DNA of 64,000 nucleotides from Lactiplantibacillus nangangensis (GTDB lineage Bacteria > Bacillota > Bacilli > Lactobacillales > Lactobacillaceae). A program made the translations under genes and the position numbers. Numbering within the stretch: the stretch's first letter is position 1; every line of letters starts with the position of its first letter. The stretch lies in NCBI RefSeq assembly GCF_005405065.1, contig NZ_BJDI01000017.1, forward strand, positions 1 through 64,000, read 5' to 3'. Positions 2,142 through 47,834 of this stretch are shown here, piece by piece. The notes below the pieces were generated by a model. That model saw nothing but the letters and a program-made list of their open reading frames with translations. It was not told the DNA's origin and ran no database searches.

Positions 2142-2263
2142 CCAGAATTGGCTAGAACGTGGTACCTGCGTTTGGAAACCAAGTGCGGTCTACCACAAGA
2201 CGGGGGTTATCTAAGTCTGAAAATCACCGACCAAGATAACCGACACCACTGAGCCAATTCTGG
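2142..2263 (-). repeat. Family A structured repeat, copy 1 (reverse)
   Basis: The outer 12-nt arms at 2142-2153 and 2252-2263 are perfectly complementary. An inner hairpin pairs GTTATCT (2206-2212) with AGATAAC. The conserved AGACCGC...TTGG hairpin and the GTTCYAGC motif are present when read on the minus strand. It is most like the copy at 10372-10498 but diverged in the third hairpin. Confidence 0.75.
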
Positions 2264-10194: not shown

Positions 10195-10371
10195 ACGAAC
10201 CCCCTCCTTTAGTCACTGATGCACCAAATCAAATAACACCATTTGTCTCAAAACAGTTAACTAGCTATGCTTAGTGCTAGTTGAAATTGCCGCCTGCCGG
10301 TTGGTTGCTAAATGACTGAACTAAAAATAATTAATCGTTAATTTTTTAATAGCTGTTAATTAACGTCGGGC

Positions 10372-10498
10372 GGGCCAGAATTGGCTCAGTGGTGTCGTTT
10401 ATCTTGGTCGGTGATTTTCCGACTTAGATAAAGCCCGGCTTGGAAGACCGCTCTTTGGCTTCCAAACGTGGCCACCACGTTCCAGCCAATTCTGGCCC
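10372..10498 (+). repeat. Family A structured repeat, copy 5
   Basis: Perfect 15-bp arms lie at 10372-10386 and 10484-10498 (GGGCCAGAATTGGCT and complement). Inner pairings are GTGGTG/CACCAC, TTTATCT/AGATAAA (10398-10404 and 10426-10432) and TTGGAAG/CTTCCAA (10440-10446 and 10459-10465) with the conserved ACCGC...TTTGG loop. It is the cleanest three-way-junction copy. Confidence 0.85.
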
Positions 10499-10541
10499 AA
10501 CCAGAGTGGCAATTTAAATTAACTAGCAACGACCGGAGCGG

Positions 10542-38881: not shown

Positions 38882-39328
38882 ATTCTTTCTTTGTTAACTT
38901 CTTGTCAAATAGTTTACCCCATTTCATACCCAAAGGGAAACATTTGTATATACTTTTTAGCCAAACTATCATTTTTGCTTGATTAGAACTTAAAGTGACC
39001 GCCACAACTGCTAAATCGCTATAATAATTAAATAACGGTTTTGGTCGTTCATTGCCGCCTGCCGGTCGAGCCAGATGAGGCTAAATTCGTTAAAACTATG
39101 ATTTAAATTATGACCGTTTCTACTATATGTCTTACCAACTTAAACGACTAAATTAGAAACAACCCATTAAGCCTCTGTCAATAAACGAATTGATGTCAGC
39201 CTTAAGCATAAACGTTACGCTCGGTGCTAGTTAGCTTAAGTTGGCACTTTGATTGGGCCAGAACCGCCCGGCGTTGATTAACGAAAATTAACGCTTACCT
39301 ATTGTCGACCACAAATTGAGCCGAGAGG

Positions 39329-39462
39329 TTGGTTTCTAAAATGCTCAGCCGTGTCGTTGGCCTTAGTGCGAGTGGTGTACTCGGACTTAGACCAACGACA
39401 GTTTTGAAGACCGCTTTTTGGCTTCAAAATGACCTACGGCGTTCCAGCGTTTTAGGAACCAA
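39329..39462 (+). repeat. Family A structured repeat, copy 3
   Basis: Seventeen-nt arms at 39329-39345 and 39446-39462; the two departures from perfect pairing are both G-U in plus-strand RNA. CCGTG pairs with TACGG (one G-U), CGTTGG with CCAACG, and TTTTGAAG with CTTCAAAA. Closely related to the copy at 2331-2464, including about 75 bp of leading flank and 30 bp of trailing flank. Confidence 0.82.
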
Positions 39463-39599
39463 CCGGTAGGCGGCAATTTTAACTAGCACCAAGTGTCTAA
39501 ACGTCATGTAATTTTACTACTTGCGCACTGACTAGTAGCTTAATTCCCAATCAAGCTTTAAACTAAGCATAACAACAGAACACTGCACTAGCCGAGAGG

Positions 39600-39738
39600 T
39601 TGGCAGCGATGAGGCTCAGTGGTGAAATTTTACTTAGTCAGCGGCGGGTTTGGCCGGTGGCTTAGTAAAAGGCCGGCTTACGAGACCGCCCTTTGGCTCG
39701 TAACCGTGCCCACCACGTTCCAGCCTCATCGTTGCCAA
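39600..39738 (+). repeat. Family A structured repeat, copy 4
   Basis: Seventeen-nt arms at 39600-39616 and 39722-39738 with one G-U. Inner stems are GTGGTG/CACCAC, TTTTACT/AGTAAAA (39628-39634 and 39664-39670) and TTACGAG/CTCGTAA (39678-39684 and 39697-39703). Almost every arm differs in sequence from copy 3 while keeping complementarity. Confidence 0.85.
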
Positions 39739-39802
39739 CCGGCAGGCGGCAACGAACCGCAATTCGCACTTAAAGCCCAAATACTAAACTGAGGTGACCC
39801 AC

Positions 39803-40072
39803 ATGGAAGTCCATACATTAAAACTCGATCAAGATGCCGTAATCTATTCAGCCGCTATCAAAGCATTGTCAGGATTCAAGCCAGAAATCGACGTTGATTT
39901 CTCAAAAACGACTAATCAAGAAGAGGCCCGCATTCTGGCTAAAGAAACCACCGCGCAATTTTTACCCGTTTTCGAACAATTATTAGAACAAGGCTATGCC
40001 AAAGCTATCTCCAAAGGCCAATTAGCCGAATGGGGCGCCTATTATATGGCCCATAAAGTTCATAAAAAATAA
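39803..40072 (+). CDS. Small hypothetical protein
   Basis: An 89-aa soluble protein with no recognised domain, acidic and helical-looking, with a short basic tail (HKVHKK). ATG at 39803 follows GAGGTGA by 5 nt; the upstream in-frame GTG lies within that site. It lies alone between the repeat island and the T-box leader. It looks like a real gene because of its ribosome site and amino-acid composition, but I cannot name a function. Confidence 0.7.
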   Translation: MEVHTLKLDQDAVIYSAAIKALSGFKPEIDVDFSKTTNQEEARILAKETTAQFLPVFEQLLEQGYAKAISKGQLAEWGAYYMAHKVHKK

Positions 40073-40470: not shown

Positions 40471-41031
40471 ATGCAAAACAAACAATCTAATTCCATTCGC
40501 ACCGTCGTCGCCACCGGGATTGGCGCCGCTGTGATCTTCGTCCTGATGAAGTTCGTCGCAATTCCAACCGGGATTCCTAATACCCAAGTCAACGTGGCTA
40601 TCGGCTTTCTTGCGTTACTAGGCGCCATCTTTGGTCCCGTTGCCGCTGGTCTGGCTGTCTTTATCGGGCATGCCTTGAACGACTTTGTCACTTATGGTTC
40701 ACCTTGGTGGACGTGGGTCATCGTTGATGGTTTAATTGGGGTCGCCTTTGGTTTAGCCAAGAATCACCTTAAAATTGAAAATGGTGTCCTTGGCAAAGCC
40801 AAATTGATCTGGTTCAACATTTATCAAATCATCGTTAACTTCATTGGTTGGGTGCTTTTAGCCCCAACCGGTGATATCATTATTTATCATGAACCAGCTA
40901 ACAAAGTTTACATCCAAGGTGTGACGACTTGGATCGTGGATTCAATCTCAGTTGCCGTGATTGGGACGATTTTACTTGTTTTATACGCCAAAACTCGAAC
41001 TAAACGCGGGAGCTTAACAAAGGAACGTTAA
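40471..41031 (+). CDS. UPF0397 ECF S component (probable methionine uptake)
   Basis: A 186-aa membrane protein of the UPF0397 family with five to six hydrophobic segments, the substrate-binding part of an ECF transporter. Conserved segments include AIPTGIPNTQVN and GHALNDFVTYGSPWWTWVI. An AAGGAG site precedes the ATG. It is the first gene after the T-box leader and is followed by its own ATPase and transmembrane genes, so a dedicated (group I) ECF system. The leader points to methionine or a precursor as substrate; this is inference. Confidence 0.85.
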   Translation: MQNKQSNSIRTVVATGIGAAVIFVLMKFVAIPTGIPNTQVNVAIGFLALLGAIFGPVAAGLAVFIGHALNDFVTYGSPWWTWVIVDGLIGVAFGLAKNHLKIENGVLGKAKLIWFNIYQIIVNFIGWVLLAPTGDIIIYHEPANKVYIQGVTTWIVDSISVAVIGTILLVLYAKTRTKRGSLTKER

Positions 41032-47528: not shown

Positions 47529-47542
47529 GATTGCCGCTTCCG

Positions 47543-47710
47543 GTTGTGGTTGCGTACATGCGGGCGAGGGACCGGGCCAAGCCATAGGATCGTCTTGCCC
47601 CTCGCCCGGAAGCCTTGCCTAAACCACAAGTCTCCCAGCCGGTCCGTGGCGTAAGGCCGGAAAATCACCGGTCAAACGCCACCCACACGCCCGATGCACA
47701 CAACCACAAC
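47543..47710 (+). repeat. Family B structured intergenic repeat, copy 2
   Basis: Perfect outer arms GTTGTGGTTG (47543-47552) and CAACCACAAC (47701-47710). Inner pairs CGGGCG/CGCCCG (47561-47566 and 47688-47693), CCGGGC/GCCCGG and GTGGCGT/ACGCCAC (47646-47652 and 47676-47682). Shares about 170 bp of architecture and several identical blocks with copy 1 at 1842-2005. Confidence 0.78.
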
Positions 47711-47834
47711 CCCCAGCTAGTCAACTATTTTAAATGGTTAGTCAGCTATTTTAGTGGAATGATAAGTCACATACGGCCATTCTAGACGTAACGAACATCA
47801 GTATTGCTGGATTCAAAATAATTTTGGTATTTTT

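Follow-up and report, generated by a model that had tools for sequence, protein, structure and literature searches.

Within the window, as we call the whole 64,000-nucleotide stretch of DNA that was analysed, an initial annotation had described a covarying three-way-junction repeat in five places, among them positions 39600-39738. The locus raises the question of what such a repeat is, a motif standing on its own or a piece of a larger unit, and of why its pairing should be kept.

Fold and covariation of the repeat

Direct reading and alignment of the five copies, located at 2142-2263 (minus strand), 2331-2464, 10372-10498, 39329-39462 and 39600-39738, confirmed that all share the single fold described for them. 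Each copy, hereafter an arm, comprises an outer stem P1a, an internal loop CA/GTTCC, a stem P1b, and the hairpins P2 and P3 (5/5 copies). The P3 loop is of the ACCGC..TTTGG type. The minus-strand copy at 2142-2263 carries GTTCT instead of GTTCC in the internal loop, and its P3 loop is one base shorter. RNAalifold on these five copies alone predicted 52 pairs, 23 of which have both sides changed with pairing kept. Compared with 200 dinucleotide shuffles, the stretch 39590-39760, whose folding energy is -97.1 kcal/mol, has z = -8.2, and its complement has z = -6.3.

The alignment was extended to 23 copies, consisting of 19 chosen via exact anchor motifs from 30 loci and four window copies. Here 97.3% of 1184 pair cells are paired, versus 77.6% in shuffled data (raw values that ignore kinship), and double changes occur at 34 of the 52 pairs, kinship again being ignored. 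None of 500 shuffles reached the 23-copy values on any of five measures, and sliding the partner columns by 1-3 positions lowered pairing to 29-47%. These data bear out the covariation claimed for the arms, as well as the conservation of the P3 loop, which is near-invariant in this alignment. No further helix was found outside P1a, the duplex energy being -11.87 for own partners and -11.81 for shuffled partners over 81 copies.

Copy number, host range and database coverage

The count of at least five copies was true and far too low. The initial annotation had suggested building a covariance model from the five copies; the model used here was built from the 23 aligned copies. In the own genome (2.9 Mb), it returned at least 92 matches at E≤1 and at least 88 at E≤0.001 when 150 of 789 candidates were scored. 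Of 20 further genomes of the genus Lactiplantibacillus, 18 gave matches, as did, across the family, at least 83 of 301 genomes in at least 13 of 40 genera when up to 10 candidates were scored in each genome. An exact pattern search, which detects just part of the arms, recovered at least 26 stretches, with hosts that include Lactiplantibacillus songbeiensis, L. dongliensis and L. daoliensis as well as Levilactobacillus humaensis and L. paucivorans.

The repeat had been thought possibly to be one of the Lactobacillales motifs of Rfam, which the searches did not support: at gathering cut-offs no family in the window falls on the arms, and lax thresholds gave three sub-threshold hits on them (E 0.26 to 9.6). 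The sole gathering-level match in the window lies elsewhere and is a T-box leader (RF00230, 40172-40367, plus strand, 95.9 bits) preceding an ORF at 40471. The covariance model therefore marks many intergenic stretches that are without Rfam coverage. A blastn search of plasmids and phages with one copy, the 39600-39738 arm, gave no match, and our literature search recognised no description of the present repeat.

Two arms, head to head, form the unit

Close pairs of arms in the own genome face outward in 25 cases and inward in none; when 94 arms were grouped by distance (gaps under 900), they formed 67 groups, namely 25 outward pairs, 2 same-direction pairs, 40 single arms and no inward pair. 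The relative G020 has 24 outward pairs, 1 same-direction pair and no inward pair within 1 kb. The arms at 10372, 39329 and 39600 entered this grouping as single or same-direction arms with truncated partners ignored, and by eye each of the three has a truncated opposite-strand partner upstream. From the outward pairs and the truncated upstream partners, it follows that the unit is a head-to-head arm pair. The element that contains it is non-coding and, in the youngest subfamily at least, mobile. A single copy acting as the unit, as in a stand-alone RNA motif, is not supported by this layout (25:0 and 24:0 outward).

In the full element, a spacer separates two arms of about 140-175 nt, both of which face outward, and terminal repeats lie beyond them. 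Some arms are of a longer type (163-177 nt), several members of which have an additional hairpin; six of eight inspected sit head to head with an ordinary arm. The two arms of the same element resemble each other only in the inner P1a, and weakly so (p = 0.013, six regions tried). Two G020 intervals in which outward arms stand at wide gaps (1448 and 4753) contain no transposase-like ORF recognisable by eye.

The fold also leans towards one strand. Over 94 distinct, mutually related arms, and with a constant G-U pair excluded, G-U occurs 152 times and A-C 66 times; by column, G-U leads in 32 and A-C in 7. The one-strand bias proposed for the window copies is thereby upheld, but the stricter statement that every outer-arm departure is a G-U pair fails family-wide, given the 66 A-C cases. 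Single-sided changes between orthologous arms show a slight excess in the same direction, G-U 21 versus A-C 11 over 17 comparisons, and a slight bias of 14 versus 9 with one comparison per arm. The G-U excess over A-C therefore suggests that the outward strand folds as a single strand, a result compatible with RNA or with single-stranded DNA.

The youngest subfamily is linked to an IS982-family transposase

To describe the ends of the element, we compared the tips of 27 aligned elements. The commonest tip in the youngest subfamily is ACGCTTGGTGCTAGTTGA. Direct repeats of at least 8 bases adjoin both tips in 8 of the 27 elements, and all 8 belong to the 15 with youngest-type tips; among the other 19, the element at L193, with a 9-base direct repeat beside different tips, is a possible exception. 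In the own genome, such repeats flank 3 of 5 young pairs versus 0 of 20 mismatched flank pairs, and 1 of 20 older pairs versus 6.8% of 380 mismatched flanks. The lack of an excess in older elements could be an effect of age, and their tips, by eye, are eroded or different.

The own genome contains an IS982-family element of about 960 bp at L245:1019-1979, whose first 18 tip bases are identical to the commonest tip of the young elements. The genome has two whole copies of it and a third that contains stops. The encoded protein, of 289 aa, is identified as an IS982-family transposase by NF033520 (E 7e-66) and has Pfam DDE domains. Two near-identical IS982-family elements lie in direct orientation about 0.3 kb apart at L245:1019-3144. 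The excerpted account in PMC7335449 gives AC(N)6T(N)5TT as the IS982 end pattern and lists several members with direct repeats of 8; the pattern, so given, fits the tips of both the young elements and the L245 element. With up to 3 mismatches, the 20-mer tip occurs 12, 132 and 112 times in three genomes, and the reversed control 1, 2 and 0 times. Among 21 genomes of the genus, 13 have relatives of the transposase; in G009 none was detected, yet young-type elements are present there. A comparison by eye of 12 G020 elements with IS982 elements from the same genome revealed no common tips.

Movement in trans by an IS982-family transposase is probable, and well supported at the level of sequence, for the youngest subfamily only. 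We confine the link in this way because direct repeats are not in excess among the older elements, whose tips look eroded or different.

These features bear on whether the fold serves movement itself. In IS200/IS605 elements and integron attC sites, folds act as single-stranded DNA during movement. If the present fold acted likewise, in the manner of these systems or of REPIN/RAYT, rather than as RNA, the head-to-head doublets, the dispersal and the strand bias would appear identical, and the mover of the older elements is left unaccounted for by the IS982 link; REPIN doublets, too, are mostly inverted pairs in the excerpted account of PMC3116915. We nevertheless consider this explanation unlikely. 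A search for the Y1 transposase domain (PF01797) gave no match in the own genome, G003, G004, G005, G008, G016, G018 and G020, all of which bear the element, and gave matches in G001 and G002, where the model found no element; in the other 11 genomes of the genus that bear the element, both are present. What fits the youngest subfamily is target duplication and a DDE-type partner, and movement as single-stranded DNA leaves unexplained why old copies keep their pairing in place.

Elements within the window

Four elements were delineated in the window, the whole arms being scored with model R1. Element 1 (2101-2498) is a complete young-type element and reads tip, minus arm, spacer, plus arm, tip. 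Its left arm, of type B, lies at 2134-2271 on the minus strand (93.2 bits), and its right arm, of type A, at 2328-2467 on the plus strand (127.2 bits); the right-tip 20-mer matches exactly at 2477-2496, and the tips have no direct repeat of 7 or more bases. Element 2 (10267-10535, the right end being approximate with an eroded tip) has a truncated left arm and a whole right arm of type B at 10367-10503 on the plus strand (134.5 bits), with the left-tip 20-mer at 10269-10288 (1 mismatch).

The copy at 39600-39738 is the right arm of element 3 (39597-39741, plus strand, 147.6 bits), whose left arm survives, by eye, as a remnant of the outer stem only at 39052-39082 on the minus strand. Inside the spacer of element 3 sits element 4 (39217-39496), a young-type element recognised from its sequence and its right tip at 39475-39494 (2 mismatches). 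The right arm of element 4, of type A, lies at 39326-39465 on the plus strand (118.7 bits), and its left arm is, by eye, a mere remnant at about 39238-39262. At the orthologous site in L174, the right arm of element 3 is 94% identical, a similarly truncated stretch is present in place of its left-arm remnant, and the model finds the older arm only, with no second arm. In L173, the model has no match at this site, where a short stretch resembles the 3' end of the arm.

Element 3 has a TATAAT at 39020-39025 on one side and, on the other, a small conserved gene that starts at 39803; it may therefore be in the leader of that gene, also at L174. Arms near the same small gene were seen in further relatives, L175, L176, L179 and L183, some of them elsewhere in the intergenic region; these are apparently separate insertions. 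The window also holds a second repeat pair, at 1825-2024 and 47530-47725, whose members are 73-78% alike and lie mostly outside long ORFs.

Arms persist and compensate at orthologous sites

We compared arms at orthologous sites in related genomes. Over 15 comparisons, some with arms in common, mean arm identity is 0.89. Flank identity, measured on 60 bases lying 16-75 bases away from the arm, is 0.51 on the spacer side, versus 0.47 for unrelated 60-mers, and 0.68 on the outer side, which sometimes takes in gene starts. The chance-level identity of the spacers could reflect their replacement. Stem pairs were scored with the 39597/L174 pair, which is included in the identity means, left out. Among 11 comparisons, one per own arm, 73 stem pairs changed, comprising 37 double changes still paired, 2 double changes broken, 14 single changes still paired and 20 single changes broken; the corresponding numbers for all 17 comparisons are 62, 3, 21 and 27. 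The changes cluster in mid-P1a, with three neighbouring pairs altered in 11, 7 and 6 of 14 comparisons. Taken together, the ortholog identities and the pair changes demonstrate that arms persist and compensate.

There are three orthologous sites at which the arms differ in type or direction. The types differ between L013:1511 and L186:1783 and between L042:1501 and L213:1371, both outside the ortholog counts, and the direction is opposite between L107:1919 and L207:1815, which is not an ortholog pair and was excluded from the counts. Replacement or independent insertion therefore happens. With these three sites set aside, the alike arms, the 37 of 39 double changes that are paired and the G-U bias make it seem that a one-stranded fold is kept in place.

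The same pairing might instead be maintained, with no function behind it, by hairpin-templated copying of one stem half onto the other or by copies exchanging sequence. Such a process could account for the excess of double over single changes in P1a, where one comparison per arm yields 27 double-paired, 1 double-broken, 7 single-paired and 10 single-broken changes and where changes often come in blocks. It would also be in line with the different arms at the three sites and with the finding that, when just the core is compared, no more than 5 of 14 arms have their ortholog as the best match among 167 arms. When the whole arm is compared, however, 10 of 14 do, and neither the bias of G-U over A-C nor the invariant loop positions would be expected from copying; we thus regard maintenance without function as distinctly improbable.

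Possible function of the arms

An arm kept for its fold could be an independent small-RNA gene or a gene-linked, riboswitch-like cis-regulatory RNA, and the conserved loops and junction with their RNA-like covariation are what one would look for in either. Their surroundings argue otherwise. Sigma-70-like promoters are not enriched before arms (mean scores 7.61 sense, 7.47 antisense, 7.65 shuffled), and a downstream T-run of at least 5 is found in merely 3 of 81 stretches, giving no terminator signal. Relative to neighbouring genes, taken as mechanical ORFs of at least 90 codons, single arms between co-directional genes agree with gene direction in 12 cases and disagree in 11; this split shows no orientation signal and therefore speaks against a cis role in mRNA. 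With dozens of copies in the own genome besides, we hold both forms of this explanation to be very unlikely.

We instead propose, at about an even chance of being right, that the repeat, as an arm of a small mobile element without coding sequence, has a fold that would work as RNA in read-out transcripts and be retained by the host. The fold would act when transcription exits the element in either direction, since the head-to-head layout gives a correctly oriented last arm whichever way the element is read. A protein or another ligand would be bound at the invariant P3 loop and at the CA/GTTCC internal loop, and inserted copies would then be retained by the host for the action of the fold. We favour RNA in read-out transcripts as the use, given that the fold has been retained in old copies and that the layout suits transcription in either direction; the 12-to-11 split of single arms counts against it. 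The proposal is weakest at the RNA step and at the benefit of that step. A more far-reaching version, which we put forward tentatively as possible but less than probable, is an old superfamily of non-coding mobile elements whose arms are outward-facing RNA modules taken over by the host, so that dozens of selected chromosomal copies would be genome-wide binding sites for one factor, with a stem block that is variable between copies and nearly always paired.

Small bacterial mobile repeats are usually regarded as decaying junk or as hairpins for movement alone. In these lactic-acid bacteria, individual copies that related species have in common still keep a strand-biased junction fold paired, largely via compensatory change. 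Because pairing is preserved in individual shared copies, the gain of a host function by such repeats becomes directly testable.

Relation to known repeats

ERIC, Correia/NEMIS and BOX repeats are dispersed and intergenic and have RNA folding potential. The present element is like them in dispersal and folding potential, and the general descriptions of these repeats, with host groups and layouts unlike those found here, set it apart. REPINs and REP doublets, according to the excerpted account in PMC3116915, are similar in being inverted doublets with a less conserved spacer and extragenic dispersal, and in having single copies that resemble remnants. In contrast to REPINs so described, the arms found here are much larger, each with its own junction, and the elements have target duplications in the youngest subfamily and no consistent Y1/RAYT link. 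A REPIN/RAYT link had been considered and was rejected on the distribution of PF01797, which is absent from 8 of 19 element-bearing genomes of the genus, the own one included, and matched in both element-free ones.

The MITEs mobilised by IS982, represented by MITECca01 of Cardinium, are likewise non-coding, multicopy and mostly intergenic, and the ends of MITECca01 resemble those of an IS982-family element in the same genome (PMC9769881, as excerpted). That MITE is about 240 bp long and was reported from one Cardinium strain, according to the same excerpts, whereas the present element has two large covarying junction arms and occurs in at least 13 of 40 genera of the family; the excerpted description of MITECca01 (PMC9769881) makes no mention of such arms. 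Judged by its tips and flanking repeats, the youngest subfamily behaves like an IS982-driven MITE.
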